Assembly (NCBI GenBank): GCA_001051155.2
Contig: JYIP02000004.1
Location: forward strand, 5,078,383 to 5,142,382
Length of the DNA: 64,000 nucleotides
Direction: 5' to 3'
From: Chrysoporthe austroafricana
Taxonomy: Eukaryota > Ascomycota > Sordariomycetes > Diaporthales > Cryphonectriaceae
Notes under the pieces: generated by a model
The model's database searches: none
What the model saw: only the letters and a program-made list of their open reading frames with translations
Told to the model about the DNA's origin: nothing
Made by a program: the position numbers and the translations under genes
Part shown: in pieces, positions 12,700 to 40,232 of the stretch
How the letters are laid out: the number at the start of each line of letters is the position of its first letter
Numbering within the stretch: the stretch's first letter is position 1

Positions 12700-13276
12700 A
12701 AGGGATGGCCGGCCTCCTTTACAGCTTCTATAGGTAGTACATAACGGGCATTAAAAATGGGGATTTTTTTTCAAAAAAAAAAAATCAATACGATAAACAC
12801 TAAGCTAACAGACCGAAATTTCAACCGCTTGTGCCCCGCCACAGTAATCATGTCTCTACAAGTAAGCACCCACGCATGTCCACGGCAGTAGTGCGGTAAT
12901 CTGCGGGCGGCTGGTTGGTCGCCGGGAGCGGAATGGCTGGCTCGCCTCACCCCGAGCTGACACTTGGCATAAGCAGAACGGGTCACAATGAGTCATTCTG
13001 AGTACGCCGGCGTGGCTGGATCCGCCCAGGGCGCGCTCTCTAGCCGGAGTGGTGTGGATGGTAGAATCACCATAGGCGTATGCATGCATACCCGGTATAT
13101 AAATCGCCATCATCTCGACTCACCCGTCCTCCCCCGGACGCCCTCTCTCCCTCGTTAAGCCATCCCCCTCCGGTTGATGGTTACGCTACGACTAGCCCTC
13201 TGATAGCCTCACCTCCACCTCTCCCCCCGAGGAGACCAAGTCCCAGCCGGCCTCGTCCCAAGAGGCCGCTCACGCC
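12700..13276. promoter_or_regulatory. AT/GC boundary and bZIP-gene promoter region
   Basis: GC content rises sharply here. A T8 run followed by an A12 run lies at about 12765-12784. A TATA-box-like GTATATAAAT sits at about 13097, roughly 180 bp before the bZIP reading frame becomes clearly coding. I see no convincing gene in 12,700-13,190. Confidence 0.4.
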
Positions 13277-14139
13277 GTGTCACAATGGCCGCAGCAGGAT
13301 CCGCATCCAGCTGCGCGACGCGCCAGACCCCAACCGCCTTCTTCCGCCCAGCCCAGCAGTAGTTCGCTGCACTACAGCCTCTATCCAGACCACTCGACGA
13401 CACCTCTTGACCTCGGCTTCGGCCTCGGCCTCGACCTCTCGCACCCGGACTTGTTCCACCCGGAGCTGTGGCTCCAGCCCGGCACTGCCATGGCAGCCGC
13501 CGGCGACAACTCGGAGATGCCGTACGGACCGTCCTGGACGGACGCGGGCGAGGGCTTCCCTGCCGCCGCACCTCCTCTGGATCTGGACTTCTCATTTGGT
13601 CGGTGCATTCGCCCGCCGACAGGCCATGAGGCCCGCCGCTGACAGTCGTCCCAGACCCTGCCTTGATAGAGGCCCTCCCGGACTCGATCCCGGACTTCTT
13701 CCTTGTCACCCCGCGCAATGTCACCGGTAGCCACGAGCTACAGCAGTCACAACAATTCCGGACCCTCACGCTCGACCCGCCACCACAGCCCTCTGGCTTC
13801 GTCCCCAGCGCCGAAAGCCACTCCCGGGCCTCCTCGCCCTCCGACAGCAGCCCTCGCACAGGGCCCGGTAACAGCCGAGCCGGAGCTGGGCGCCAGTCTG
13901 GGAGCGCCAAGCGCGAAGAGGACCCCGACGTCGTGCTCAAGAGGCAGCGCAACACAATCGCCGCGAGAAAGTACCGGCAGAAGCGCCTCGACCGCATCAA
14001 GGAGCTGGAGGACGCGCTGGAGGACATGACTAAGGAGAGGGATGACCTGAGGCTGAGGCTGGCGAGGCAGGAGGCCGAGACTGCCGCGCTCAAGGAGATG
14101 ATGCGCATGAACACAGGGCAGGGTAGCGACAAGAATTGA
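13277..14139 (+). CDS. bZIP transcription factor (two exons; start uncertain)
   Basis: This is a sequence-specific nuclear DNA-binding factor. Exon 1 runs to 13598, the intron is 13599-13654 (GTCGGT donor, GCTGAC branch, CCAG acceptor) and exon 2 is 13655-14139. The joined frame reads LDFSFDPALIEALPDS. The C-terminus holds the basic region RQRNTIAARKYRQKRLDRI followed by a leucine-zipper coiled coil. The basic-region core N-T-x-A-A-R-K-Y-R matches the fungal GCN4-like class. The N-terminus is Pro/Ser-rich with an acidic, aromatic patch resembling an activation domain. Start problem: the frame is open from 13196 without any ATG until 13490 (codon 72 of this model), and position 13277 is GTG. 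Either translation starts at 13490 or a further 5' exon exists. The bZIP assignment is secure; the target genes are unknown. Confidence 0.8.
13599..13654 (+). other. Intron of bZIP gene
   Basis: The sequence is GTCGGT...GCTGAC...CCAG, 56 bp, phase 1. The unspliced frame stops at 13640, whereas splicing joins two well-behaved coding stretches. Confidence 0.75.
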
Positions 14140-14567
14140 TACCGACTCTCTTTTGAATATTGCACCGCTCGCCGTGTCTACAGTGCGTCAGACCAGATGT
14201 GAAACCAAAGACGAGCGCAGCATCAATTGCCACGCGGCAAACGAAACACGATGCCACAAAAGACCTTGATGTACGCCAATTGAACTGGTTCAATATGATC
14301 AATTGGTAATGGGGCGACCCGTTCCATCGGTTGTTCCCCAGCGAAAGTGCCCAGACAGCACCCAGTAGAGTTGATAGAACAGGCCCAGAGTGCCCGCGGG
14401 GGAGAAAACCGCATGATCGTTGCCTCAGTGACTCCGGCTTCTGGGAGACAGATCGTACAAAATCCTGTTAAACTCCATCGCTATGCTGTATCCAGGGAAT
14501 CACACACCATGACCTGCGTCTATGCCAACCCCCCTGACGAAACCTGCTGAGCCGTCTGTTAAACTCC
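14140..14567. other. Convergent intergenic region
   Basis: This is the space between the 3' ends of the plus-strand bZIP gene and the minus-strand nuclear-protein gene. Only short open frames occur. I see nothing I can name. Confidence 0.6.
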
Positions 14568-16619
14568 TCACATGCAACCCTCAATCAAACCAAGGACATC
14601 TTCATCCGTGTCAAAGTCGATGTCACCATAATCTGTCTCCGGAGATGAAGCCTGGCCCGTCTCGCTACTGAGAAGGCGACGGTTTCCTGTCCTTTCCGCA
14701 CCAGAACCTACTTGGTCCGCTATTACTCCTACTCCTTTCTCATTCCGGGCACAACTGCTGTTCGTATGCGATGCAGAGCCCCATCTAACATCTCGTCTTA
14801 TGTGCTGACCCGGCAGGCCACCATCGGTAAGGTCCACGCGATCGACATCAGGATGCTTGAAAAAGTGACTCTGCGGCTGCGGTTGGCTTTCCTGCGCTCG
14901 GACACCCTGCTCGCGGCTCCGTTGGTCACGTAAATTTTGCTGGTAACTCCGCTCCATCACGACCAGTGTCTCGGCACCAGGTCCGCTCGAGCCAAACATT
15001 CGCTTTTTGGGAGGGGAAGCGCGAGGCGTAGCCCTATTGTGCTTTTCGGGGCTGGAACCTAGATTTACTCGAGGAAGTGACAAGAGCTGACAGTCTAGGG
15101 ACTGTGTGTGGCAGCTTGCCTGCGATCGTGTATTGATCTCCCCAATATGGCGTGCTTGAACGAGCGGCCTCCCATGAGAGGCTTGGCTCGCGGGCTCAAG
15201 GTCACGGGGCCATTGAGTCTGTTGATTGCCCTGAGCCTCATAAGGGCGAGGAGGAACATTATTAACCACCGTTGTTTCCGCACTATCACCGTTTCTGCAA
15301 ATTGGTTGGTCCGAAACGGGGTGTCTCGCCGTACGATCGCAGTTATTCTCAGTTTGTGTCCGAGATCCAGCTGCATTAGATCCGCGCCAGTGTTGCTTCG
15401 AAGTCCTGGAAAGTGTCTGTTCTCGCTCCGTTGGTGAGTTTGGAGCTTTGGCTGTGGGTATACCTCCGGCCTTGCTGGGGGTGTCTATCTCCCAATAATC
15501 AATGAAGTCCTGCGTTGAGAGAAAGGGAAATTCTAGATGAAGCTCTGCAGCTGCGAATGGCGATGGCAGGGGCGGCGGTAGTGGTTCATTTCGCGGATAT
15601 GATGCTCTGGGCAGCCCCTCTCCCAGGGGCAAATCTGAGCGAGGACTGGCTCGCTCCACAGACCACCTGGGTTGGTGCTTAGAGAGACCTGATTCTTCCT
15701 CTTCAGCAAAACTGTCTGCCAACTCCCTTGCCTGTTGGGACAGGCTGGGGAAGATCTCATCCACATGGTCAAAGAGGAAGTCTTGGGTGCTTGGGAGCAG
15801 TGCGTGGGCTCTAGAGGGACGCGCACGGGGGTGACCTGGAACAGCCGCTGGACTGTCCCCGGCCAGGCTTTGGCTGACCACACTCCTAGAAGACGCGAGA
15901 ACGACGTCTTCGATGAGCTGGTTCTCCGGCAGTGCCTCGCTCCGGGGGTCGTTGGTGTCGACACCGCTTGCCGGAGGATAGGATTTGGCCTCGAGCTCTT
16001 GTGCTATCTTTGCCGTGGCACCAGGCGGGTGTGGACGAGAGGGCAGGCCCGCCTCACTTGTGGTTCTCTCATCTGGATGGCTGTGCCGTGGCCTCTTTGG
16101 TTTCCTCTCAGCCTCCAAGTCATCATCCACTGGCTCCTGGTTCTCCTTGTCGCCGGATGCATCATGCTCACCGATAGCGTCGAGACGATTGCCGGCGGCC
16201 GAAGCGGGTTGTCTCTTCCCGATCTTGATGAATCTGGATATTGTATCCTGGCTGGGATGGACATCGATCAGGGGCAGGCCCTTCCTCTTGCGATCGTCCT
16301 TCTCTTGTTCCTCCTTGGCCTTCTTCTTTTCCTTGGCGATCCTCGCTCTTGCCTGTGCCTTTTCCTTGTCGAACTCCTTGCGGATGCGGTCCTGTTCCAT
16401 GAGCTCGATACGGCGCTGCTCGGCCTTCGAGAGCTTGGGCCCCTTGTTGGCCTGCCTGTGTAGCTTCTTTGCCTGCCTTGTGGTCATAGGAGGCCTGGTG
16501 TAGACAGGCTGGGGGTGCGCGTGAGGCTGGGCAGGTTGTTGTTGGCCAAGACCAGGGAGGCCATTGAGGCCAGCGGGTATGTTGGGGATCAGCTCAAAGA
16601 CCCTCTGCCGCGGGGGCAT
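14568..16619 (-). CDS. Conserved fungal lysine-rich nuclear protein, function unknown
   Basis: This is an uninterrupted 683-codon frame starting at the ATG of MPPRQRVFELIPNIPAGLNG. An upstream TTG in the same frame is not a plausible start. The N-terminal ~150 residues look conserved: a proline-rich leader, then RQAKKLHRQANKGPKLSKAE, a long charged helix rich in K/E/R (residues about 55-110), then GLPLIDVHPSQDTISRFIKIG. I recall this '...PSQDTISRF' ending from unannotated ascomycete proteins. The rest is low-complexity Ser/Pro/Gln-rich with basic clusters (RKPKRPRH), suggesting nuclear location. The C-terminus is acidic (DYGDIDFDTDEDVLGLIEGC). There is no catalytic motif. DNA-repair or chromatin roles are possible but unsupported. 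It faces the bZIP gene tail to tail. Confidence 0.75.
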   Translation of the reverse strand: MPPRQRVFELIPNIPAGLNGLPGLGQQQPAQPHAHPQPVYTRPPMTTRQAKKLHRQANKGPKLSKAEQRRIELMEQDRIRKEFDKEKAQARARIAKEKKKAKEEQEKDDRKRKGLPLIDVHPSQDTISRFIKIGKRQPASAAGNRLDAIGEHDASGDKENQEPVDDDLEAERKPKRPRHSHPDERTTSEAGLPSRPHPPGATAKIAQELEAKSYPPASGVDTNDPRSEALPENQLIEDVVLASSRSVVSQSLAGDSPAAVPGHPRARPSRAHALLPSTQDFLFDHVDEIFPSLSQQARELADSFAEEEESGLSKHQPRWSVERASPRSDLPLGEGLPRASYPRNEPLPPPLPSPFAAAELHLEFPFLSTQDFIDYWEIDTPSKAGGIPTAKAPNSPTEREQTLSRTSKQHWRGSNAAGSRTQTENNCDRTARHPVSDQPICRNGDSAETTVVNNVPPRPYEAQGNQQTQWPRDLEPASQASHGRPLVQARHIGEINTRSQASCHTQSLDCQLLSLPRVNLGSSPEKHNRATPRASPPKKRMFGSSGPGAETLVVMERSYQQNLRDQRSREQGVRAQESQPQPQSHFFKHPDVDRVDLTDGGLPGQHIRRDVRWGSASHTNSSCARNEKGVGVIADQVGSGAERTGNRRLLSSETGQASSPETDYGDIDFDTDEDVLGLIEGCM

Positions 16620-17076
16620 TTTGGGATCTGGTAGGGTTGTGAACAATCAGCCAGAAGAAGCTAGGTGCAGGTAGTGCTGTGCCCTCAGCGCAGCTCAACC
16701 CAGTCCAGCCCATGCCGGGAGATCTGATGGACCTGCGGTGTTGATGATGATGTTGGTAGTGGTGTTGATGGTAGTGGTGATGGTGGTGGCGATGGTAGAG
16801 TGATGGTGTTGTTGCATTGCTCCGTGACGCGTCAGAAACAACTGAGCCATTGTCGCCATTGCAGTGCATGGCAACAGCAACACGGCCCCACCCAGCCTGA
16901 GACTGGGTCGCCGATTCACGTGAGCACGTGACACCGGCTACAGCTGCTTGTCTGTGAGCCCATTCATCGCAGAGCAGGAGCAGGCTCTTCTCACCATGTT
17001 CCATGACCACAGCAAGGGCTTCTTGAATTTTGTCTTAGATATTGACGGAGCCTGAAGACGGTAATTAGTGGGTATG
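16620..17076. promoter_or_regulatory. Upstream region of the nuclear-protein gene, up to the retroelement
   Basis: It contains a degenerate trinucleotide (GGT/GAT) repeat at about 16738-16800, which makes spurious His/Thr-rich ORFs on the minus strand. No gene is seen. The LTR element begins at 17077, about 460 bp upstream of the start codon at 16619. Confidence 0.5.
17072..17076. repeat. Target-site duplication, left (GTATG)
   Basis: GTATG directly precedes the LTR at 17077 and is repeated exactly at 24407-24411 after the other LTR. A 5-bp duplication is the expected product of Ty3/gypsy integration. Confidence 0.9.
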
Positions 17077-25446: not shown

Positions 25447-27291
25447 TCAATATACGAAACGGAAATCCAATCTCCTGTTGCCATCTTTCTCCCGCAACTC
25501 CGTATCATTTTGGTACGCCGTCCTCTCCTCAACGCTCATCGCCGACCACTGCCGTTCCTTCCTCCTGTTCAGGTGCACCAAGACCTGTCGCTGCACTAGC
25601 AGAGTCAGTAAGGTGAGCACGCAGATGGCCAGCAGCACCGAATTCCCTATGTGGTAGTAAGGCGAGTCCCACGACCGGTAAATTTGACTCCCAATGAGCG
25701 ACCCAACCTGCACAATCACATTATAGGTGGCCGCCGTGATTGCACGCTTCTTCACGTCGAAGCTGTTCTCGCTGATCCAGCTGGAGATGATGGGGTGAAA
25801 ATAGGGATATCCCGAGATCAGCGTGATTACGGAGAAGCGGCCCCAGTCTCGACCGCCATTGGGCAGAGAGATGAGGGCGACAAGGAGGGGCATGATCCAG
25901 AACTCCCCGAAGAAAGCGTGAAAGGTACGTTCGTTGAAATAATCACTGCTCCGGGCCAGCGCCAACATGGTGATGATCTGCAGCACAGCCGATGGGATCG
26001 TCAGCATGTTGGAGTCAAAGGTCGAGAAGCCGAGTCTCTTCAGCGTGAGGGTCAAGTAACTCGTCACTGGTGTCGCGGGGATGTATGCCACCACACCGAC
26101 GAAGTAGAGGCCGAACATGGACGGGTCCTTCCAGGTCTCCTTGATGTCCCTCCATGTGGCTGGCTCTTGAATCGCAGTCAGGCCTTTCGCAGGATCATCG
26201 CGGAGTATTCGCTATTTGAACTTTCCTCAGCACAAGAACTCTTCTGGCACATAATCCCAATCGTGTCTTGTATTTGGTGGCGGACAACAGAAATGGCTGG
26301 ACTCACGTTGACCATAATCACCTCTTCCCGCTCTGTGAACCACGGTTCCCGCCACAGAGGTCCCTTGGTCGACGTAGGGGACGACGGAAGGTACAAGAAA
26401 GACTGCACACGTTCAGGCAATGTCAGTATACTAGCTGAACCTCGACTGCAGTGGGCTGCAGGCCCTGTGAAAGATACTCACGAAGAGTCCAATAAGGCCG
26501 GTCAACAAGCCCTCGAGCAAGAAGAGCCAGAACCAACCGGGCTTGTCCTGCACACCCCTCATTTTCAAGATTCCCGCGGCCAGGAGCGCTGATATGATTC
26601 TCGCAACATCTGATACCCATAAATAAGACGGCCACAGCAGATGGCGATAGAGGACGGAGAATCACGAGGATGACTGACTGAGTGTGGACCAAAACGTGGC
26701 CAGACGGACTGACAGCTCCTTGGACGTGTAGAAATACGTGGCGAACAAGATAGTTCCCGGAATGAAGCCGCCCTCGAACAGGCCAATGAAGGCACGCCCC
26801 AAGTAGAAGCCCGTCCTGTTGACCATCCACGACTGAGCCCAGGAGGCAGTCGACCAGCATATCATCAAGGTCGGCAAGACATGGCGAAAGCCGTAGCGCT
26901 TGGTGAGCATCTGCACGGGGAACTCGGCTGAGAGGAAGGCCAGGAGCTGAATTGTCGTGCCGTTGTTGTAGTCGTCGGTGGTCAGGCCCAAGTCGGCCAG
27001 GAGGTCGTCGGCTGTCGCGTTCGAGAGGTTGCCACGGTCGAGCTGGAGGGCGAAGAACATGAGGCACAGCCAGCTGAGCAAGTACATGTCACACTTGCGC
27101 ACAACCCGCCGTTCCTCGGCCTCGGTCCAGGTGGACGTGGGGTCCCAGCGGTGTTTTCCCTCATAGGAGTCGTGGGGAGGTATTGCGCTGGCGAGCTGAT
27201 CGCGCCCGACGTGGGCCTCCGAGACCTGGGTGACAGAGCCCCCATCGCTAACTGTCTTGGTCGGGAAGGCCTCGACATCCTTGGTGTCCAT
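25447..27291 (-). CDS. MFS transporter, Dal5-type anion:cation symporter family
   Basis: This is a plasma-membrane secondary carrier for organic anions, closest in style to allantoate, pantothenate and sulfonate permeases (Dal5/Tna1/Soa1). Exons on the minus strand are 27291-26679, 26609-26482, 26402-26307 and 26211-25447. The introns are 69, 79 and 95 bp with GTCAGT/GTGAGT donors. The product is 533 aa and every junction closes in frame. It has an N-terminal hydrophilic leader, then KCDMYLLSWLCLMFFALQLD and RGNLSNATADDL (TM1 signature), RTGFYLGRAFIGLFEGGFIP (TM4), DKPGWFWLFLLEGLLTGLIG, and the post-TM6 block WRDIKETWKDPSMFGLYFVG. About 12 TM segments are expected. The start is ATG 27291, in front of DTKDVEAF. 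It is divergent from the TauD gene, so the substrate is plausibly a sulfonate. Allantoate- or vitamin-type substrates cannot be excluded. Confidence 0.9.
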
Positions 27292-28409
27292 CTTGGGCTT
27301 GGAAACGCGGAAACACGACGCTGGGCCCCAGGGAGGATGACCGGTGCCGTACGAGGTCCGTTCTGGGAGGCAAGAGGCCGAGGCCAACTCCTTCCGACTG
27401 GGAAGGGAGAGCCACCCGTGAATATATATCCAGGATGGACGATCAGGCCGGTCCGCGCTTGTCGTGTCTGGACAGCACCGGCGACATCGACCAGGGAGAA
27501 TCGCGTCTTCCGTCAGACTTTTTCTCAAGGGCTAGGTCGATACTCCCACCGGTGAGGACGAGCAGCCACACCGGCCACGAGACCGAGGCTCTTGTTATCA
27601 GAGACCAGGCTGGACCTGACGCGTGCCGTGCCGTGCCCCCCAAGAGCCTGGACATACTATGGTAACGACAAACCAGACCACCCCATGACCTGATCCAGCC
27701 TGTTGGGACTGGCAAGCATGTGCGCGTACCCACCGTGTCGCTAGGTCCCGAAGAGACAGCAGCTCGTACTATGTTGTGTATATGCTAATGCTATCAGGGG
27801 CCGGCGGTCAGGCCGAATAGGGACGGGGGAGCCTGCCATGCAGCCATGCAGCCGGAAGGAGGGCAGGCTGACGAGGGATGCCTCCGGGCCTGGAGGGCGA
27901 CGAATGCAACGTCGGTGCGCTTGTCTTCTCTTGCGGGGTACGGCTGCATTTGCTCACTGGCACCCAAGATGGCGTCAGTCCTCGCCTCCGAGATTTTCTC
28001 CGCTGCCGGGATTGCAACATCCACACGCACTCGGGGGCTTCTTAGGCGGTCATGGGAGTTGCTACGCTTCGTGACGAGGTATACTTACTGGGTAGTACGA
28101 TGTACGTACCGCCGCGTATGGAGACTGTGGCCTCGGCGCGGGTTCTCTTGTCGTCCGGGCCTGTCAGTGGCATAGCGGACGAGAGTCGGCTGATGACCCG
28201 TACAGCACGGCCCGGTTGAATCCATCGTGAGGGGGTATATCTTTGATCCCGGCCCGCCCCGTTCACACCTCTTCGAGGTTGAAGAAGCGAAGCGTCGGCA
28301 TATCTACTTCGTTCTTGCATGCCCACTGCACTCCGTTGCCTCGGCAATCGAGCTCTTTCTCTGCCGCCCAGTCAGAACACCCAAGCCTGTCCCAGCATAC
28401 CCATCGCCG
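27292..28409. promoter_or_regulatory. Divergent promoter between transporter and dioxygenase
   Basis: 1.1 kb separates two divergent start codons. A TATA-like ATATATAT lies at about 27421-27428 for the minus-strand gene. ATGGCGTCAG at 27969-27978 matches the palindromic ATGRYRYCAT site of the sulfur regulator CYS3/MetR in 9 of 10 positions. No ORF here resembles a protein. Confidence 0.45.
27969..27978 (+). promoter_or_regulatory. CYS3/MetR-like binding site candidate
   Basis: ATGGCGTCAG fits ATGRYRYCAT except for the last base. It lies 678 bp from the transporter start and 432 bp from the dioxygenase start. It is a single site and a chance match is possible. It is reported because both genes are of a type expected to be under sulfur control. 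Confidence 0.35.
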
Positions 28410-29609
28410 ATGCCTTCCGTCGAGCTCCTGGCTGGCGAGCAGAGGCTCGAGGGCCAGTTCTTTGGCGGGAACACCCAGGCGCGCACGCGCCTTCTCAAGC
28501 CGCTGAGGTACACTGGCAGCTTGGACGGCTTCGAGCACCAAGACCTGACGCCAGTGATCGGCCGTGAATACGAGGGCCTGCAAGTGAGGGATCTTTTGCG
28601 ATGGGGCGATGACATGATCAGAGACCTCGCTGTCACAGGCCAGTGCACGACTCCTCCAGAACTGCGGCCCTGCGCCGGGCCGGGCTGACATCTCTCCAGT
28701 CTCGCAACGGGGCGTGGTCTTCCTTCGGGATCAGGATGTCACGCCTACCGAGATGAAGGAGTTAATGCTGCGGATCACAGAGCTGTCTGGATGTGTGAGT
28801 CCGCTCGGGGGCTGCAATCCCATACGGGCCACAGCGCATGTACTGACGGACGTGGACAGCCTGAGTCGTCCGGCCTCCACATCCACCCCCTGACAGAGGA
28901 AGGCAGTGAGCTCGGTGACCAAATCAGCGTCATCAGCAGCGAGAAGCAGAAGAAGGGCGGCGGCCTGACGCACCAGCTCTCGGACGTCAGCAGATTCGCA
29001 TCGGCTGGATGGCATTCAGATATCACCTTTGAACCAGTTCCGTCAGACTACGCCATGCTGAAGATCCACACCCTGCCGCCAACTGGGGGGGACACCCTGT
29101 GGGCTTCCGGCTATGAGATATACGATAGGCTGTCACCTGCCATGCGAACCATGCTAGAGTCGCTCACAGCGACTCATGATGCGAGGTTCTTCCTGGAGGA
29201 GGCCAAGCGGCTAGGGAACCCGCTGAGGAAGGGCATCAGAGGGAGCCCGTTGAACCAAGGGGATCGGCTGACTGCCGTGCATCCTGTGATCAGAACAAAC
29301 CCCGTGACAGGCTGGAAGTCTGTCTATGTCAATAAGGGCTTCACCAAGCGAATCAACGGCGTCACCAAGGACGAGTCGGATCTCCTGCTCGGCTACCTCT
29401 TCAACATCGTCACGCAGAACCACGACGCCCAGGTGCGATTCAAGTGGCGAGCGAACGATCTCGCCATCTGGGACAATCGCTCCATGTGGCACTGCGCTAC
29501 GTATGATTACGTGGAGGCACGCGCGGGTGATAGGGTCTGCAGTCTAGGGGAGGCCCCGTACCTGGACTTGGCATCAAAGGGCAGGAGGGAGGATCTTGGC
29601 TTGATGTGA
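28410..29609 (+). CDS. TauD/TfdA-family 2-oxoglutarate dioxygenase (sulfonate/taurine dioxygenase-like)
   Basis: This non-haem Fe(II), 2-oxoglutarate-dependent dioxygenase would hydroxylate the carbon next to a sulfonate, releasing sulfite and an aldehyde (yeast Jlp1-type reaction). Exons are 28410-28638, 28700-28794 and 28860-29609, giving 357 aa. Intron 1 appears to be GC-AG (G|GCCAGT...CTCCAG) because only that junction gives the family sequence DLAVTVSQRGVVFLRDQDV. Intron 2 is standard (TGT|GTGAGT, TACTGAC branch, ACAG). Iron ligands are visible: H160 and D162 in WHSD, distal H319 in NRSMWHCATYDY, and R333 for 2-oxoglutarate. Other conserved blocks are LHIHPLTEEG, GGDTLWASGYEIYD and LGEAPYLDLASKGRRED. 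Length is typical. The start ATG precedes PSVELLAGEQ. The substrate is not determinable from sequence; taurine, isethionate or aliphatic sulfonates are likely. Confidence 0.92.
28639..28699 (+). other. GC-AG intron in the dioxygenase gene
   Basis: The donor is ACAG|GCCAGT and the acceptor CTCCAG, with a GCTGAC branch 11 nt upstream, 61 bp. The only nearby GT donors give the wrong phase, and this junction restores the expected V-S-Q-R-G block. The donor is non-consensus beyond the GC, so transcript data would help. Confidence 0.65.
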
Positions 29610-30515
29610 TCCCTGGCGAGGTGGAGGTGAACTCGTCGATGGACGTGAACCGGAAGAAGCACCGGCCACAGTCTCCCTAGCGTGTGAACGAGTGTGCCTC
29701 ATGTTGGACTCTAGAAAGCTGCTGCTGAAGTCACAAATCACATCAACGCTCCCTCCCACCTGTGCCGCTGCACTGCACCCTCTGAGACCCGCAGAGTTCA
29801 AGCGCCGCAGGATATCAGTCACAGCCACGGCAAGCTTTGTGGGATTACCTAGGTAGCTGTGATGAAGTCGCATCTAGACCAAGTTGAAGTGGTCGAGCGC
29901 ACAGCTCACCACCGCTCGAGCCTCCCTCCAACATATCGGCCATCATCGTCGAGCTGTACGGGTGAAGCGCGTCCCCGTGAGCGCTTCAGTGAGGTGCTCC
30001 GGGAAGTTCAGGGAGGAAGTTAGGGAGACGGGCTCGCACTAATGCATGACTCCATTGTGGACTTCGATGGCGCAAGGTTCGGACCCGCCGTTGATCCGGG
30101 GTAAAGGAGGGTCCCACATGGGTCCCTGCGAGATGCCTTAGTACTGCACAAGCAGACCGAGCCAGGCCAAGTGCAGATCGGAGGGACCATTTCGACTGGA
30201 AACAAGCGGCCAAGGTGATGCCGGTCCCCTTGGTCTGTAGGTAATCGGCCCCGCACTGCTGCTTGGTGTGGTGCTCTGTTGAGGCCTGCGCGTGGCCCCC
30301 GGAGCACGTTGTCGACGCAGGACGACTCATCCTCACCCCAAATCACGAAATCATCCCGAGAAAGCCATCGAGCGAATCGAGTGCCCAACCACGCCGGAAT
30401 CTGTCACCAGGCGAGGAACGGCCCGTCAGCAGCATGCAGTAGATCGTCAGGGATCACGACCAGACGCCCCGAGACCTCAGATCCGTCCTCTACCCAGCTC
30501 GTCATCCGTGCACAG
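29610..30515. promoter_or_regulatory. Region between dioxygenase and Zn2Cys6 gene
   Basis: This is the 3' flank of the dioxygenase and the 5' region of the regulator. The regulator's frame extends upstream to 30279 without an ATG other than 30516. No other gene is seen. Confidence 0.5.
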
Positions 30516-32306
30516 ATGTCGTCGATACCTCGGCGCAAGATTGGCAGCAGGGCGTGTGATGGCTGCAAGATCCGCAAGGTGAGGTGCTCCGAGACGCCTC
30601 CCTGCACACGGTGCTCCTCCATCGGCATCGAGTGCACCTTCAACAAACGCCAGGCAACGCGCGGCCCCCGCAGCCTGCGGGCTAAGACGCTGGCTGAGAT
30701 CCGGACGTTCCAGGAGAGCCAGAGCCAAGGATCGACCGGCGCTGGTCCGCTGGAAGGATCGCCGGCCGGCGGAGCAACAAGCACAGGCCGTGGCCCGCAA
30801 GGCGACGGCAGCGGCCTGGAGCGCGGAAGAACCCCTGTCTCGTCCCTCATAGTCCGGCTCTGCCTCTACAACCACCGACTCTTCCCCGTGTGGCCTATCC
30901 TCAACGTTGACGATGTCATCAGCAGCCTGCTGCGACATCCCGCAGATGTGGAGACCTTCGCGCTCGCGAACGCTGTGTGTGCCGCCATCATTGCACAGCT
31001 CAAACTGCCTTTCGAGGGCAGGACGGATGATAACGATCCGGCTACAGCAGCGTCCATGGCTGCTGAGTGCCAGAGAGGCAAGGCATCGCTACAGGGCGGC
31101 GACGAAGGTCCGGAAATGAATCTCAATATGCTCCGCATATCCTTCTTCCAACATATCTACCACGAGAACCTCAGCCCGGGGGGTAGCAAGTCCCTGCTGT
31201 TCCTCCGGGAAGCCATATCGATTGCGCAAATCATGGGCCTCCAGCGCCAGTCCACCTACACCTCACTACCGGCGGAGGAGCAGCAGATGAGACGGCGCAC
31301 GCTGTGGCTGCTGTTCGTCACGGAGAGAGGTGTGACCATGCTGCACAAACTCCCCACGATCCTGGCGTGGCAGCCCAGCTTTCCCCCTCTGGATGGGGCG
31401 GACTGCGAACAAGACGAGGCGCACATCTTGCCCGCATTCAAGAGACTGGTCGAGCTCTTCTGGATGTTCGACCAGGGCGGAGCATTCGACCTGATACACG
31501 CCGATGATAGAGGCGACACACAGGGAAGCAGCCGGCTCGACTATCTCCAGCGGCGGTTGCAAGAGATGACGGAGGAGGAGCAAGAAACCAACGAAGTCCA
31601 GCGAGCCGACATATTGGTAACAAGATCCTGGATGCAGACGGTGCTCTGGCGGGCGTCCACAAGATGCTCGAGGGCCCATGAGCAACCCAGTCTCGTGACC
31701 CAACCCTATCGGATCGTCAGCGACTTCCTTTATAACATCAGCCGTTATTCCAAGACTGCACTCGAGGCCCACGGGCCGACAATCGAGCTCAAGATATATG
31801 AGATGGCAAGCGCTCTGACAGACGCATTATCCACGAGCCTGGACCTGCTGCGGAGCTCCGTGGGCATGGAATCCAGGCCGGTCGACATGCTTATCCAGCT
31901 CCAGAGGCTCCTCGCGTCGTCCCGTGGTGGCAACAAGACGCTCCTGACACTACTGTGTGCCCGCATCGCCGAGGTCGAGAACGGCGGGTCGCCCGAGCTT
32001 GTGTCAAGCCCACCGGACCTACCGCTCGTGGAGGTGGTCAACGCCGAGGGCGACGATGATGACGACGGCGGCGACGATGGCCTCGCCTTCGGAACAGCTG
32101 CTCGGGCAAGGGAGAGTGTCTCGTATCCAGTATATCTCGATCCGAGACTGGACTTCTCAGCGCAGCCGATGTGGCCGGATGTCCGTCAAGAGCCTAGCCA
32201 CGGCATCAATGCCGACCCCTGTGGGAATCTGGGGGTCATGGTCACGCAATTGACGAACGAGTCGTGGAACGGATGGACCATAGACCTGAGTCAGATACCG
32301 CTGTGA
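30516..32306 (+). CDS. Zn2Cys6 fungal-specific transcription factor
   Basis: A 596-aa nuclear regulator is encoded in one exon. ATG 30516 begins MSSIPRRKIGSRACDGCKIR. The binuclear zinc cluster is complete: C14-x2-C17-x6-C24-x5-C30-x2-C33-x6-C40. After a low-complexity linker (about residues 60-110) comes the fungal-specific middle homology region: LIVRLCLYNHRLFPVWPILN, HIYHENLSPGGSKSLLFLRE, AISIAQIMGLQRQS and RRRTLWLLFVTERGVTMLHK. An acidic patch (EGDDDDDGGDD) lies near residues 510-520 and the C-terminus is NGWTIDLSQIPL. It resembles maltose-activator-type (MAL-R) factors. It lies between the dioxygenase and the aldo/keto reductase, all on the plus strand, so it may control this cluster; that is inference from position. 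Upstream in-frame sequence starts at a TTG, hence the ATG choice. Confidence 0.92.
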   Translation: MSSIPRRKIGSRACDGCKIRKVRCSETPPCTRCSSIGIECTFNKRQATRGPRSLRAKTLAEIRTFQESQSQGSTGAGPLEGSPAGGATSTGRGPQGDGSGLERGRTPVSSLIVRLCLYNHRLFPVWPILNVDDVISSLLRHPADVETFALANAVCAAIIAQLKLPFEGRTDDNDPATAASMAAECQRGKASLQGGDEGPEMNLNMLRISFFQHIYHENLSPGGSKSLLFLREAISIAQIMGLQRQSTYTSLPAEEQQMRRRTLWLLFVTERGVTMLHKLPTILAWQPSFPPLDGADCEQDEAHILPAFKRLVELFWMFDQGGAFDLIHADDRGDTQGSSRLDYLQRRLQEMTEEEQETNEVQRADILVTRSWMQTVLWRASTRCSRAHEQPSLVTQPYRIVSDFLYNISRYSKTALEAHGPTIELKIYEMASALTDALSTSLDLLRSSVGMESRPVDMLIQLQRLLASSRGGNKTLLTLLCARIAEVENGGSPELVSSPPDLPLVEVVNAEGDDDDDGGDDGLAFGTAARARESVSYPVYLDPRLDFSAQPMWPDVRQEPSHGINADPCGNLGVMVTQLTNESWNGWTIDLSQIPL

Positions 32307-32865
32307 TAGAACGTGACATCATGTTGCTACTGTAAGCCAGCTTTGTGACAGTGCAGTAGGGTCTGTCGTCGAGACTGGCCCGCAAGGAGGATGAGGGACC
32401 AGGTCGGATCTCTAACAACGTGAGAGGACCATCTTGCCTGATAGAGAGTCCATTTGAAATGAACCCCAGTATGCCTGCGATTGCTCTCCTTGATCAACTG
32501 TTCGTGAGATACAGCATCGCCATGTTGAGTGTCTACAGTGTCTCGTAATGCTGGGGGTGCTCTTACCTGGGCATTGTATCATGCAGCCGCGGCCCATTGG
32601 CGTGGCTGGGTCCACAGTTTCTGCGATGCCGAGAGTTTCTCCGCTGCTTCGCGACCGCGGAGAAAAAGGAGTGCGGAAGGGTCACCGGCGTGAGAATCCG
32701 ATCGCCAAGTCCTGCCAGGGGGGGGCTCGCGAGATTCCCACATTCGACAACTCACCTCGCTCGTCCCGCGACGCATGCTGCGCATCTTGACAGGCTGTCT
32801 AGGATCTGGCCTGGTAATCTCACAAGCACCCTTCGCCGCCCGGTAGAGAGACGAGGTCGAGCAAG
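32307..32865. promoter_or_regulatory. Intergenic region upstream of Kv-beta-type reductase
   Basis: Overlapping minor frames only. I see no gene. It probably contains the regulator's terminator and the reductase promoter. Confidence 0.5.
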
Positions 32866-34218
32866 ATGGCGTGGGAAGAGCCTCGCAAGACTGGCATGGC
32901 CTACCGGAGGCTTGGTAAGGCCACCTCACCCGGAAGATAGGAGCGTCGCGGACTGATGAGGCTTAGGATCCTCGGGCCTGCATGTGTCGGTCCTGGGGCT
33001 GGGGGGCTGGCTCACGTAAGTGCTCCGGAGCCGACAAGGGCTGGAGAGTCCTCAGGAGGACCACGCGGCGTGCTGACAGCCGGCACAGCTTCGGTGGGCA
33101 GCTTGGGAATGGTACGTGAGCTGCCGGATGGGAAGCTGACCCGCGCACTCATACGTATTACCAGAGACGACGTTCGCATGCATGAAGCAGGCATATGACC
33201 TCGGCATCAACTTCTTCGACACTGCTGAGAGGTGCGTGAGTCTCCGGCCTGCTTCAGCAGCAGTGGGCTGACCGGGGGTTCGCAGCTATGCCGGTGGCCA
33301 GTCTGAGGTGGTCATGGGACAGGCCATCAAGAAGTTCGGCTGGAACCGCAGCGACATCGTGGTGAGCACCAAGCTGAACTGGGGAGGCCACAACGGGGAG
33401 GTGCTGGTCAACAACCATGGGCTGTCACGGAAGCACATCATCGAGGGCCTCCGGGCGTCGCTGAGGCGGCTGGACCTGGAGTATGTGGACATCGTGTATG
33501 CCCATCGGCCAGACCGCTGCACACCCATGGAAGAGACGGTCCGCGCCTTCAACCACGTCATAGAATCAAAGGGGTACGCCCTGTACTGGGGGACGAGCGA
33601 GTGGAGGGCAGACGAGATCGCCGAGGCGTGCGGGATTGCGAGGCAGCTGGGACTGATCCCTCCCGTGGTGGAGCAGCCGCACTACAACCTGCTGTCGAGG
33701 CAGAAGGTCGAGGGCGAATTCCAGAGGTTGTACAAGAGGTTCGGCATCGGGCTCACGACGTTCAGCCCGCTGCAGTTCGGACTTCTCAGCGGCAAGTACG
33801 ACGACAGCCCTGACCGGCCACCAGTAGGATCGCGCTTCGCCAAGGGCGATGACAAGTTTGTCAGCTCGGTGAGGGACTCGTACGCGGACGAGCAGTGGCA
33901 GTCGACCATAGCCAAGGCCAAGCAGCTGAAGGCAAGTCCGATCCCCCCCTCCCCCCTACAGACCGAGATGAGACCTCGAGGCTGACACCGGGGCAGCCCA
34001 TCGCAGACAGGCTGGGTATCACGCGGGCGCAGCTGGCCCTTGCGTGGTGCCTGAAGAACGAGAACGTGTCGGCCGTGATCACAGGAGCATCAAGCCCAGA
34101 GCAGGTGGTGGAGAACTGCGCAGCGCTGAAGGCACTGGACAAGCTGACGCCCGAGGTGCTGGCAGAGATCGACGGCATCGTGGGCAAGGTAGAGCCGGAT
34201 CCGGCGAGGCAGGATTAA
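32866..34218 (+). CDS. Aldo/keto reductase, voltage-gated K+ channel beta-subunit type (AKR6-like)
   Basis: This is a cytosolic NADPH-dependent aldehyde/ketone reductase of the Kv-beta/YghZ class. Six exons give 351 aa: 32866-32914, 32967-33015, 33089-33111, 33165-33231, 33286-33931 and 33997-34218. Junctions are set by the family sequence [20 protein letters not shown] / [20 protein letters not shown] / [20 protein letters not shown]. Catalytic residues are visible: D and Y in FFDTAESYAGG, K in VVSTKLNW, H in VYAHRPD. Cofactor-binding blocks include [15 protein letters not shown] and [14 protein letters not shown]. The last intron is GC-AG (AAG|GCAAGT). The start is ATG 32866 (CAAGATGGC); ATG 32896 is an in-frame alternative. 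Such enzymes accept varied carbonyls. Beside a TauD enzyme it could reduce the aldehyde released by desulfonation, which is inference. Confidence 0.93.
33932..33996 (+). other. GC-AG intron with canonical GCAAGT donor
   Basis: CTGAAG|GCAAGT...GGGGCAG, 65 bp, phase 0. It joins AKAKQLK to [12 protein letters not shown] exactly as in the family. AG|GCAAGT is the known consensus of GC-AG introns. Confidence 0.85.
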
Positions 34219-35222
34219 GTCGCGAAGAGGCGGGCTTGGCATTGCTGGACGGTACGCTCTGAGTGCTGGTGCAGAGATGCTGGGTGGAGGGGTCAGGAAG
34301 GCAGAGAAAGAAGGAACAGAGTTAGGAATGGGCATGCGGTTTGGCCTCGGGTCAAGACGATGGAAATAGGTTGTGATTTATCTATTTCGAGGAGTGTTCA
34401 ATGCTCTGTCCTCCGCCAAAAATTCTCGAGGAGGGATTGGTCGAATTCCACGTGCGGAAGTACCTACAGGGCACCCCTCCCCGTGCCTTAAATAAATCCC
34501 ACGTGGTAGTTGAAAAGGCCGGTTGAAGAGGAAGGCGTGCCACCACGATTGGCTGGTTAGGAAGCTTTGGCGTATGTAGAGGAAAACCCTTTTCTGGGAT
34601 ATCGATAGAGCCTCTGGAGACTTGACCAATTATGCCACCATGGCCAAAGAATGCAGAGCAAGGCCAAGCAGTGGGCCTCCAGAGTCTAACGGAGCACAAG
34701 AGCATGGGAGTCCGCACCATCATCGCCGAAATATAGCACTGGCTTTCGAAAGCGGAGAGGGGAGCTCCCACATACACCAGTGCGTTGGAGAGTGCAAGCC
34801 GAGATGGGGAGGCAGTGGACCTATGCGACTAATCTGTGAATGAGAAGCAGGGCCACTGCCCGCTCTTTGATACCCGGGCACTAGAACATGCGGAAGCTGG
34901 CCGAGGCTGCCTGGCCGTGGAATGTGCGCAGAGGCGACAGACACAAGCTGCACTATCTAGGGACCCTCTTTCATGAGCGCCGATGTGTTGACCCAATGTG
35001 CCTCCCAAGTTGTCTTCATGACGCCGCCTTCATGTAGTACCCTTCCGCGCCGTTCGCCACCGAGCCTGTAAGACACTCCTTGCCCCCCGCCATGCTGCCG
35101 TGCCTAAAACAAGAGTCGCAAGTATCCGCCAACGCCATGCAAATGTATTATCATCACGAATCGGTGCCTGATGTACCAAGGAGAAAAGGGTCGGGATGCG
35201 TTCGTACGGCGACGTGGCTCCA
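34219..35222. other. Convergent intergenic region
   Basis: About 1 kb lies between the 3' ends of the Kv-beta-type reductase and the RING gene. Small frames occur on both strands without recognisable domains. I see nothing I can support. Confidence 0.5.
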
Positions 35223-37632
35223 TCACATGAAGATGCCGACCCAGTTATGGTTGTTGGTTACGTCCGAGTCACAACTGTCGACCGCACAGAAGATCTTGGG
35301 TGCCCTGTTTGAGCTGTCGACTTGGAACCCAAGCTTATCGTAGTCCTTGCTCTTGATCCTCTTGCGGTTGTCGTAGCAGTTCTTGCAGTAGACCTAGACC
35401 AACGGATTTAGCAAGCACGCACCTGATGCCTCGCTTGGTTTAGCAGGGGCAGCTTACGTGACCGCAGTTCTTGACAGCCCAGAAGTGGTGCTCCTCGCGA
35501 TCCTTCCTGTTCCTCGGGCGCTTGGTGGGGCGGGGACCGTCGTCGTTGCTGTCATTGGCTGAGTACTTCAACTCATTGTCGCAGCTAGCGCAGACAACGA
35601 CCATCTCGTTATTCGTATCCCTGTCGGGGCCGGTGTGGCGCGTGAAGCCTGGTCGGGCAGGAGGAGGGGCCTCAAAGTCGGGCTTGGGGGTAGGCTGGCG
35701 GCCAGCAAGACCACCAAAGCCGTTCGCCTGGTAGTTGAACTCGGGCTGGTTGCCCGCGAGAGGGTTTGCATTCATTGCGAATTGGTGTGCACCGACAAAC
35801 TGAACATCGGCGTCGTCGTGTCCAATCTGGGCCGCGAGAAGCCCAGGGATGAGATTTCGAAAGCTACCCAGTCTCTGAAGGCCGGGTAGGAAGCCACGGC
35901 CGAAACCAAGAAAATCAACGCTCCGCCGGTGATTTCGTTGGAGCCCAGGGACGGGGAGAGGCAATAGGCGGTTGGCGGGAAACGGGGAGTCTTCGAGCTC
36001 GAGTTCGTCATCTCGGGCAGCTTCGTCTGGGCTGTCGGTAAGATCGATAACTGGGGGTTGGGGTTGTCCAAGGATGCTGCCGTCACTGCGGGCAAGCGAG
36101 GGGGTACGACCAATCTGGGACATTTGCCTTCGAGGGTTTCGAGGAGGCTGCTGCTGTCGACCGTGTCGTCGATCTTGGATTCGGCGATCTTGGCCATGGA
36201 CAATGTCTCGACGGAGGTGGATGGGGCGCTGATGGAGCAGGACGGGACTATCTGGTTCCTCGGTGAGATCGATCACATCGACTACCACCCCTTGCTGCTC
36301 AGCGTCGTTGCGGCGACGGACTGGAGGGGCGCCCGCCGGGCGATCCAGGACCACCTCGATCAGCTCATCGTCTCCATTCAAGTCTGCTCCCATGATGGCC
36401 GTGGACCGCGTCGCAGCTCCGCCTCTGTCTCGGTGCGGCATGTCAGCCTCCCGAGCCACCCTTGCAGTTCTGCGATCCCTCAGGCGACGCAGTCGTAGTT
36501 CTTGCCGTGAAATGCTTTGCTCCACCTCCTCTGAGTCCTCACCGTCAAGGAAACCCACCAGCTCTGGGCTGAGCTGGATAGTAAAGGCGGCCCGAGCGTT
36601 GTCCGCAGGGCGGCTGGGATCTTGGTCGGAGTGGTCGTCTCCAGAAGAGTTGGAGCTCGCCAGCGATTGATTTCGGGCTCGTCTGATGCGTGACTGGAGA
36701 GGGGCGTAGTCGAGCTCGTGATCCAAGGACGACGAGGAAGGATCGTCGGACACGTCGTGGTGGACAGGAGAGTGGCGAGGGTGGTAGCTGAGGAGACTTC
36801 GGCGTGGGTGGTACTGAGACCGAGGTAGCCGCCGGTTCGGGTGGATGGTAGGCGTTAGACTGGAGCGGCGTGGCGAGGCACGGGCGTCGTCGACATCGAT
36901 ACGCTCGGACAGTCGATGGTGGTAGTGGTAGTGTGGGCGTACAAGTTCTTGCGATGATACCGAGACAGAACTAGAAGCAGAGGCTGATCCCGCCCGCCGT
37001 GGGGATGGTGGATCCGAGCCGAGAAGACGGTCGGAACCAGAACCAGAGCCAGAGCCAGAGCCAGACCCAGGCCCAGACCCAGGCCCGGGAGTTATATTGA
37101 GAGGGGCGGGAGAGAAAGGCAGAGGAGAAGATGAAGGCGCGGCGGTGTCGGTTCCAGAGGACACCGAACCGGGTGAGGAGCGCACGTAGACAGTGGAGGC
37201 GAGAGAGCTGCTACCGAGGCTGCCCTGTCTCTGTCTATCGCCGACGTATCCGTGACTGTAGAAGTAGTGAAGTCTGTCCGAAATATAATGTCGGTGTCCC
37301 TCATCGAGGTCGTTCCCCCCGTCCGAGTCGGTCACCAGGTCGCTCAGCGCAGCACGGTGTTCTTCCTGTAGAGCCTCCTCGTCCGCTAGTCTCTCGGCTT
37401 GATCGAAATCAGAGAGGTCGCCGGAGCGCCAGGGCACGGGGCGCGGCGATATGTCGTGTGGGTGGTTGTAGTTGTCGTCAGGGCCGAGATCGTCGCTGGC
37501 GTCCATATAGTCGGGGTCGAGATCGAAGTCGTAGTCGTAATCGTGGTCATAATCGAGATTGTGGTCGACGGCGCGGTCCAGATCGTCGAACTGTGCAGCA
37601 TCGACGCCAAATGCGTAGCCGTAGTCACTCAT
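35223..37632 (-). CDS. RING-finger protein with two SUMO-interaction motifs (candidate Slx5/Rfp-type STUbL subunit)
   Basis: Two exons (37632-35458, 35393-35223) give 781 aa. The intron is 64 bp (CAC|GTAAGC...TCTAG). Without it the RING is cut off after CGH. The N-terminus is very acidic (YDHDYDYDFDLDPDYMDASD), then a Gly-Ser repeat (residues about 185-201) and basic/Ser-rich disorder. Two hydrophobic-acidic SIM-like motifs occur: VVVDVIDLTEE (about 449-459) and VIDLTDS (about 528-534). The C-terminal zinc-binding module has C681-x2-C684, C723-G-H725, C728-x2-C731 and C761-x4-C766. SIMs plus a C-terminal RING is the layout of SUMO-targeted ubiquitin ligase subunits (Slx5, Rfp1/2, RNF4), which act on sumoylated nuclear proteins. 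The long insert between the first cysteine pair and the rest makes the RING unusual. Start chosen at ATG 37632. Confidence 0.85.
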
Positions 37633-37642
37633 GGTCACTCAT
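37625..37642 (-). promoter_or_regulatory. Overlapping 5-codon upstream ORF at the RING gene start
   Basis: The minus strand reads ATGAGTGACCATGAGTGACT. An ATG 10 nt upstream opens a 5-codon frame (MSDHE, TGA) that overlaps the real start in another frame. The 10-nt direct duplication creates both. It may reduce initiation at the main ATG. Confidence 0.5.
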
Positions 37643-38653: not shown

Positions 38654-40232
38654 CTACGACACATCCGGGGCAGCCAGTACCGAGATCACACCATCACCGT
38701 TCACCGTCACTAGTTTCTTGGCCTCCTCGCCCCACGCCACCGCGACAGCAGGCGTCGCGCTCTGGAGGGCCTCGCTCCACTTCTTGCTGCCCTTGGCGTA
38801 CTGCTGCACAGTGACACCCGATGGTCCGCCGGTCGCGAGAAACTGGCCGGTGTAGTCCCATGCTAGGCTTTGCACCGAGCTTCCGATGTCCAGCACCTTG
38901 GCCGTGGCCGCATCGCCCTCCTTGCGCAGGTCGAATACCGTCACGGTCGTCTGTCCCTTGGCCGTTGCCGCTATCCAGTAGCCGTTCTCGGAGAAGACGA
39001 GCGCCTCGACCGGGGCCCCGAGCGAGAATGTCGCTGCCTCTTCGCCTGTCTTGGCGAGGTACATCTTGATGGCTCCATCGTTCGTGCCAGCCGCGAAGAG
39101 GTGGCCGTCCGGGTGGAATGCGCACGCGGTGAGAGGGGTGCTTGTGTACACTCGGGTGACCCTCTTGAGGGCGCCGAGGTCGTAGAAAACAAAGCTCTTG
39201 TCAGCTCCGACGGATGCGAGGATCGTGCCCCCGGGATGCATGGACAAGGCCGTCGCCGGCCCCGCGTGTTCCGCAAAGGACGCAACCTCGCTGCCGCTCT
39301 CAAAGACCTTGACGGACCCCTTCGACGTGGCGAAGATCACCTTGGAGCCGTGCCACAGCGTGTCTGTGATGGGCTCGTTCACCTGCAGCGACCGCTCCGC
39401 CTGGCCTGCAGCTATCGAGAAGATGGCCGCGTCGCCCTTTAGGCCACCCACGGCCACGTAGCCTGATTCTGTCCCGATCGAGGAGGCCTGCGGGACAGGC
39501 AGAGACTCGGATAATTGGGGCGCGAAGGAGGCGATCTCATCGGGCTTTGCCCAGCCGCTCGGTACAGGGCGCTTCTTCCGGCTCTTGGACAGCCTGGTGG
39601 AGCAACGGTCAGTAGGTGTGGCAGAGGGTCAGGTGGGGATGGGGAAGGCGTACTTGGCCTGTGTGTCGTCGACATGCTCGGCCAGTTCTTCTGGCAGGGC
39701 CTCGTTGTCTACGGCCATGGCGTCTCCATTCGCGCTGGCGCCGGCGGTGACGGTGACGGCTGAGAGGGCAGCTCTCGCCTCGTCGCGCTCCTTGGTCAGG
39801 CGCGCAATGACCCTGACGGCGGCGTCGTGCTGGTAGAGGGCGTTGGCTAGCTCATCGCGGGTCTGCGAGAGCTGCTGCTTGAGCTTGAAGGTCTCGAGGG
39901 CGAGCGCATCCCATTCGTTCTGAAAGGTAGACAGGAGGGCGGGGATGGAGGTCAGGGTGGGCGGCCGCGGTCGCACGACGCGGGCAGACTTGATGGGCAG
40001 AAGGTCGTCCAGGTCGAGCTCGTCGGCGGTGATGGGGTCCTTGCCATTCTCCTCGATGTACTTTTCGATCAGCCGCTTCTCGAAAACGGTGCCTGTCTTC
40101 TTGGAAACGACTGGCTCCTCGGGAGCCTCGCCCGAGACTGTTTGTTGTTGAGCCTTTGGTCAGCGGGCGTCCCATGCTGGCTGGGCCTGGAGCAGGGCCT
40201 TGAAGGAGGGGGCACTCACTGGCACACAGCAT
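38654..40232 (-). CDS. PRP19: Pre-mRNA-processing factor 19 (U-box E3 ubiquitin ligase, NineTeen complex)
   Basis: This is the core subunit of the Prp19/CDC5 splicing complex. It ubiquitinates spliceosomal proteins and stabilises U5/U6 in the catalytic spliceosome; it is also linked to DNA repair. Exons are 40232-40220, 40137-39654 and 39593-38654, giving 478 aa, the usual length. The 13-nt first exon MLCA joins ISGEAPEEPVVSKKTGTVFE, the U-box (residues 1 to about 60, ending near DLLPIKSARVVRPRPPTLTS). A coiled coil for tetramerisation follows (about 75-125, ALETFKLKQQLSQTRDELAN). Then comes the linker KLSKSRKKRPVPSGWAKPDE and a C-terminal WD40 propeller (e.g. ASVGADKSFVFYDLG, AGTNDGAIKMY, ATAKGQTTVTVFDL). 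Introns (82 and 60 bp) have GTGAGT and GTACGC donors. It shares a 487-bp divergent promoter with the OHCU decarboxylase gene. Confidence 0.96.

Follow-up and report, generated by a model that had tools for sequence, protein, structure and literature searches.

The window analysed here is a 64,000-nucleotide stretch of the Chrysoporthe austroafricana genome (48.15 Mb in 22 contigs), covering positions 5078383-5142382 of its 5,299,790-bp contig. About 187 kb from the end of this contig lies a group of four genes, put forward in an original prediction as a candidate organosulfonate-utilisation cluster. Splice models revealed all four with intact spliced frames: a Soa1/Dal5-type carrier of the major facilitator superfamily (MFS) on the minus strand and, all on the plus strand, a TauD/Jlp1-type dioxygenase, a Zn2Cys6 transcription factor (TF) and a Kv-beta-type aldo/keto reductase (AKR). 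Together with the Pfam matches given below, these models bear out the predicted genes, their strands and the divergence of carrier and dioxygenase across 1,118 bp; the earlier coordinates were right to one base (the AKR stop ends at 34219).

25447..27291, minus strand: putative Soa1/Dal5-type MFS carrier, 533 amino acids; exons 27291-26679, 26609-26482, 26402-26307 and 26211-25447
27292..28409, no strand: divergent promoter region common to carrier and dioxygenase, 1,118 bp
28410..29609, plus strand: putative TauD/Jlp1-type Fe(II)/2-oxoglutarate dioxygenase, 357 amino acids; exons 28410-28638, 28700-28794 and 28860-29609
30516..32306, plus strand: putative Zn2Cys6 TF with Fungal_trans domain, 596 amino acids, single exon
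32866..34219, plus strand: putative Kv-beta-type (AKR6-like) aldo/keto reductase; exons 32866-32914, 32967-33015, 33089-33111, 33165-33231, 33286-33931 and 33997-34219

TauD intron 1 (28639-28699) and the last AKR intron (33932-33996) carry GC instead of GT donors, making two GC-AG introns, and homolog sequence continues across both junctions. The AKR has 341 amino acids in the splice model, to which a start at 32866 adds ten residues; this start is the better one, and in a Cercophora scortea gene model the AKR portion opens with the same residues. Homologs were listed as the best 120 of 3867 matches for TauD, of 1037 for the carrier and of 259 for the TF, contig sharing was read from these lists, and what is said of homologs below holds among the matches listed. 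The best named rows for the three proteins span 98-100% of the query, and this coverage comes at 75-89% identity, from which the cluster genes are taken to be more than chance frames. The nearest named relatives of the cluster proteins belong to the Diaporthales.

The dioxygenase matches the Pfam family TauD (PF02668) at 4e-53, and the closest solved structures found in the PDB search are taurine dioxygenases (1gqw at 1.2e-42). Alignment with E. coli TauD places the iron ligands H99, D101 and H255 at H160, D162 and H319 of the window enzyme, so all the ligands claimed in the original prediction are present, and R329 and T187 are the counterparts at the 2-oxoglutarate site. The residues H70 and R270 of the E. 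coli enzyme, which we take to be its sulfonate contacts, correspond to H117 and R333, which 119 and 120, respectively, of the 120 homologs retain; T126 and R266 are presumably its 2-oxoglutarate contacts. All nine E. coli residues compared (H70, H99, D101, T126, N203, F206, H255, R266 and R270) are kept, each in 119-120 of the 120 homologs. Judged by its domain, iron site, 2-oxoglutarate arginine and sulfonate histidine and arginine, the enzyme is a predicted member of the TauD/Jlp1 family. The positions of D94 and N95, assumed here to lie near the amino group of taurine in the E. coli enzyme, hold Gly and Ser in 120/120 homologs, and a gap adjoins D94 in the alignment. Taurine is not an assured substrate, since the D94/N95 counterparts are not conserved, and the enzyme appears to resemble a broad Jlp1-like sulfonate enzyme more than a strict taurine enzyme.

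The best named relative of the dioxygenase is that of Diaporthe ilicicola (89% identity), and the next paralog in the C. austroafricana genome is 52% identical. The genome contains 24 TauD-family match stretches (~20 loci by hand grouping); another paralog (C2:78500-88400) is transcribed divergently from a remote MFS gene, which is 22% identical to the window carrier. A bacterial origin of TauD was rejected, the best prokaryotic segments (7 loci) reaching just 31-42%, far under the fungal relatives.

The carrier matches MFS_1 at 4e-28, and its best named relative is found in Cytospora mali (82% identity). Two homologs (P0204 and P0235) are annotated as YIL166C or YIL166C-like, and three (P0161, P0221 and P0236) as, or as related to, nicotinamide mononucleotide permease. 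The MFS_1 domain and the YIL166C-like relatives suggest that the carrier belongs to the Soa1 family of Dal5-type MFS proteins. No match was obtained against PDB, and the next paralog in the genome is 45% identical.

The TF displays the Pfam domains Zn_clus (4e-8) and Fungal_trans (2e-9), and its single match in PDB is the Lac9 zinc cluster (E 1e-4). Its best named relative, from Cryphonectria parasitica (75% identity), also groups with it as sister (99/95) in a tree of 35 rows, a metagenome TF reaches 83% identity, and no near copy occurs in the C. austroafricana genome, where the next protein is 31% identical. When Zn2Cys6 half-site spacings were counted in the three cluster gaps, none was prominent, these being counts only, with no comparison to chance. 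The AKR matches Aldo_ket_red at 1e-63, and Kv-beta/AKR6 proteins over nearly full length at 2e-105. In aldo/keto reductases, His at the HRPD/NRPD position favours an active reductase; the window AKR carries His there, where Kv-beta2 carries Asn, which favours an active enzyme in this case as well. TF and AKR are fused in the gene models P0323 (Coniochaeta sp. 2T2.1) and P0325 (Cercophora scortea), the AKR halves of which are 78-79% identical to the window AKR, as compared to 41-61% by fragment for its two nearest in-genome paralogs. Linkage of the AKR outside the window is read from these two models only; the large-collection homolog lists cover TauD, the carrier and the TF.

In the window, carrier and TauD are adjacent and divergent, as in the JLP1-YIL166C (SOA1) pair. 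Counted by hand, the TauD and carrier lists have 21 named assemblies in common, and the two genes have a common contig in 20 of them; in the exception, Dendryphion, the carrier listed has just 67% identity, and the tree places it with rows that are mostly of Eurotiomycetes. Wherever both locus numbers could be read, those of TauD and carrier were consecutive (4/4: BP5796_05763/05764, VTL71DRAFT_7719/7718, PspLS_00763/00762 and ACN47E_001762/001761, from Coleophoma, Oculimacula, Pyricularia and Coniothyrium). TauD and TF have 13 common contigs, in 12/15 named assemblies and on one 32,824-bp contig. Their numbers lie two apart in all four readable genomes (D. ilicicola 6747/6749, Gnomoniopsis 005936/005938, Verticillium albo-atrum 010054/010052 and Cercophora LCS_1 3475/3473), and therefore some gene or gene model lies between TauD and TF in those four. 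Carrier and TF have 11 common contigs, 10/12 named assemblies and one further contig, among them a 27,215-bp contig of Diaporthe helianthi; no common contig is seen in Coniochaeta sp. 2T2.1 or in Cytospora mali, the latter perhaps represented by two assemblies. All three genes fall on one contig in four cases, and the TF is repeatedly linked with TauD or the carrier, in Diaporthales, Glomerellales and Sordariales and also in Penicillium ucsense.

In yeast, the Soa1 and Jlp1 genes lie on different chromosomes (PMC5303821), in agreement with the original prediction, and are under Met4 control (PMC11502921); both protein families and the proposed chemistry are common to yeast and the window. The linkage of carrier and dioxygenase has been described before: JLP1 orthologues adjoin this transporter gene in Basidiomycota and Eurotiomycetes, a finding of Kensche 2008 as credited by Holt 2017 (PMC5303821), and the consecutive locus numbers agree with it. 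The likeness lies in a TauD-type gene beside a Soa1-type carrier, and the title of Kensche 2008 concerns divergent transcription; the window differs in being of a Sordariomycete, with a Zn2Cys6 TF and an AKR downstream. Neurospora crassa has numerically adjacent MFS and TauD genes, NCU07609 and NCU07610 (tdo-4), presumably neighbours given their consecutive numbers and comparable to the window genes by family. Both are bound and regulated by CYS-3, and tdo-4 belongs to a set of five TauD genes induced >59-fold by sulfur starvation; the part of the source available mentions no linked TF or AKR (PMC8550094). A second consecutively numbered pair is suc-2 NCU07819 (TauD) and mfs-29 NCU07820 (PMC8550094). 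E. coli tauABCD likewise joins uptake and TauD in one locus, and 9/9 contact residues checked are common with the window enzyme, but it has an ATP-binding cassette importer, bacterial regulators and no reductase among tauABCD. The window AKR differs from Kv-beta/AKR6 reductases, apart from the His, in that its gene adjoins TF and TauD. A literature search (open-licence, mostly at title level, partly with other aims) returned no TF or AKR described as linked to the carrier-TauD pair; the linkage of carrier and dioxygenase is already known, and that of TF and AKR looks new.

Sites for the general sulfur factor CYS-3 were also sought in the three cluster gaps. A site with one mismatch lies at 27969-27978 in the carrier-TauD promoter region, and further ones as follows.

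30046..30055, no strand: CYS-3-like site with a single mismatch, upstream of the TF; suggestive only
32313..32322, no strand: CYS-3-like site with a single mismatch, between TF and AKR, with a second at 32573-32582; suggestive only

The 4 sites in the gaps compare with 0.77 by shuffles (P 0.0075) and 1.02 from ten other genome stretches (P 0.02), and the whole window has 22 CYS-3/MetR sites (at most one mismatch) as compared to 20.7 expected.

Phylogenetic trees were built for TauD (42 rows chosen from the 120, plus the window), the carrier (43 rows) and the TF (35 rows). In the TauD tree, Diaporthales group with Dothideomycetes (100/99) and apart from the remaining Sordariomycetes. Forcing the four Diaporthales and twelve other Sordariomycete rows together was rejected by the approximately unbiased (AU) test (p 0.0038; the group was defined post hoc from the tree), and with Parathielavia added to the forced clade p fell to 5.8e-5; holding six Dothideomycetes together without Parathielavia was not rejected (p 0.082). 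Parathielavia, of the Sordariales, nests in Dothideomycetes with both TauD (P0022, 99/95) and carrier (P0128, 100/100), which lie on one contig, as if the two had moved together. In Penicillium ucsense, a single 366-kb contig bears the carrier, TauD and TF genes; in the TF tree this species pairs with Phialemonium (P0346 and P0326; 100/99, with a long Penicillium branch), a pairing that is weak in the TauD tree (85/36). We read these patterns as a probable exchange of the carrier-TauD pair between fungal classes, perhaps once with the TF; ancient paralogy is the alternative. Separately, three carriers of the basidiomycete Marasmius (P0123, P0124 and P0231; 68-74% to the window carrier) nest within Ascomycota (93/95 with Thozetella), a candidate inter-phylum transfer.

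Carrier and dioxygenase are likely to form a unit that scavenges sulfur from sulfonates and is governed by general sulfur control; that a regulator of its own and an aldehyde reductase are attached to this unit is plausible. The TF, with its Zn2Cys6 domain and its linkage in relatives, Coniochaeta excepted, has the features predicted for such a regulator. For the complete reading, a sulfur-scavenging cluster of carrier and TauD under general sulfur control with a pathway TF and an aldehyde-removing AKR, we consider the chances evenly balanced. The Soa1-type carrier would import an organosulfonate, or an organosulfur anion much like one, probably along with protons, and the dioxygenase, with Fe(II), O2 and 2-oxoglutarate, would hydroxylate the carbon adjoining the sulfur. 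The product would split into sulfite, which would enter sulfate assimilation, and an aldehyde, which the Kv-beta-type reductase would remove with NADPH. CYS-3/MetR general sulfur control would switch on carrier and dioxygenase, and the linked Zn2Cys6 protein may add induction specific to the substrate or the aldehyde. In this scheme we infer the imported substrate, that of the AKR, all roles of the TF and the CYS-3 control in C. austroafricana. A bolder version is held tentatively: a four-gene module, its own TF and AKR grafted onto an older pair, which would be the first organosulfonate regulon in fungi to have a switch of its own, and the core of which (perhaps with the TF, in Penicillium ucsense) may have moved between classes as a unit.

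Several points weigh against the scavenging cluster with its own regulator. The carriers of Groups 4 and 5 of Holt (Group 5 being Sordariomycete-rich) gave generally poor growth on all tested sulfur sources except methionine (PMC5303821), and sulfonate transport is for this reason not a safe inference. Deletion of SOA1 in C. albicans left taurine use unaffected (PMC13170222). Linkage of TauD and TF fails in Coniochaeta sp. 2T2.1, in Colletotrichum tofieldiae and in Phialemonium, the contigs of which are short; the fused TF-AKR model of Coniochaeta lies on a different contig from its TauD-carrier pair, so the two pairs are separable. In C. pulveracea the carrier and TF tags are 48 apart, no named Dothideomycete occurs among the best 120 of 259 TF rows, as compared to many in the TauD list, and same-contig counts on chromosome-size contigs, to which several of the shared contigs belong, are weak evidence. 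The CYS-3-like sites are weakly enriched, hence suggestive, and none in the three cluster gaps is exact. The fungal control described for such genes is exerted by general factors, CYS-3, Met4 and Met32 (PMC13170222, PMC11502921, PMC8550094), and a dedicated regulator is accordingly not required.

A rival explanation is that of two independent neighbours, a carrier-dioxygenase sulfur pair under CYS-3/MetR only and a TF-AKR pair for other carbonyl compounds. It would account for the separation in Coniochaeta, for Dothideomycetes that have the pair with none named among the TF rows, for the general regulation of these genes in yeasts and Neurospora, and for TF relatives annotated in several genomes as 'sucrose utilization protein SUC1', a name without a sulfur link. 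Against it stand the recurrence of TF linkage in three orders and Penicillium ucsense and the spacing of two gene numbers from TauD in every readable genome, and we regard it as rather unlikely. The claim of a candidate own regulator and reductase gains from conserved linkage in several orders, but in Coniochaeta the regulator-reductase and carrier-dioxygenase pairs lie apart; as to the synteny proposed as a check, contigs are shared in most assemblies by carrier and TauD and by TauD and TF, with the misses named above.

A different chemistry, desulfurisation of a sulfate ester or other organosulfur anion as by AtsK, is suggested by the alkylsulfatases AtsK and Rv3406, which are of the same family and match the window dioxygenase at E about 1e-20 to 1e-23, by the non-conserved D94/N95 counterparts, and by Soa1, which also imports inorganic sulfur and choline sulfate (Holt 2017, PMC5303821). 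However, the match to TauD is far better than that to AtsK (best 9.5e-24), and the sulfonate-site His and Arg are almost invariably kept, which makes this chemistry improbable. Still less credible, and in our view very improbable, is a TauD-family enzyme of XanA, TfdA or carboxylate type, with no action on sulfur, the partner carrier of which would move a vitamin or a nitrogenous anion; many anions are transported within the Dal5 family (PMC2329640) and three carrier homologs bear the nicotinamide mononucleotide permease name, but the kept sulfonate-site residues, the taurine dioxygenases as closest solved relatives and the sulfur-regulated Neurospora MFS-TauD pair argue against it. For carrier and dioxygenase, the sulfonate reading of the original prediction is well supported by the pairing, the active site and the Neurospora pair, its transport step being the unsafe part.

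To the right of the cluster, the next long frame (35440-37638, minus strand) has no Pfam match, and further right lies a WD40 frame (38654-39628), the best model for which is Prp19-like and under the curated cut-off; to the left, the DNA becomes AT-rich. Plausible cluster ends are therefore present on both sides. The AT-rich arm occupies window positions 1-24000, with GC 0.17-0.39 except at 12-18 kb, and a high TpA/ApT ratio of about 1.05-1.10 (1-12 kb and 20-24 kb), resembling repeat-induced point mutation. An island of normal GC within it (13209-16646) bears minus-strand frames of 322 and 692 amino acids with no Pfam match. Rfam and tRNA scans of the 64-kb window gave no matches. The 906-bp TauD-TF gap had no match to 360 proteins, these being relatives of TauD, the carrier and the TF only, so that a gene of another kind is possible there.

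Sulfonates and sulfate esters are often the more prominent soil sulfur forms (Holt 2017, PMC5303821). Few fungal genes for their use have been tested so far according to the sources available, and the control described in them runs through general sulfur factors. If true, a regulator conserved in linkage with the pathway would give access to the signals that fungi perceive, and a reductase linked to it, if true, would answer the fate of the aldehyde.

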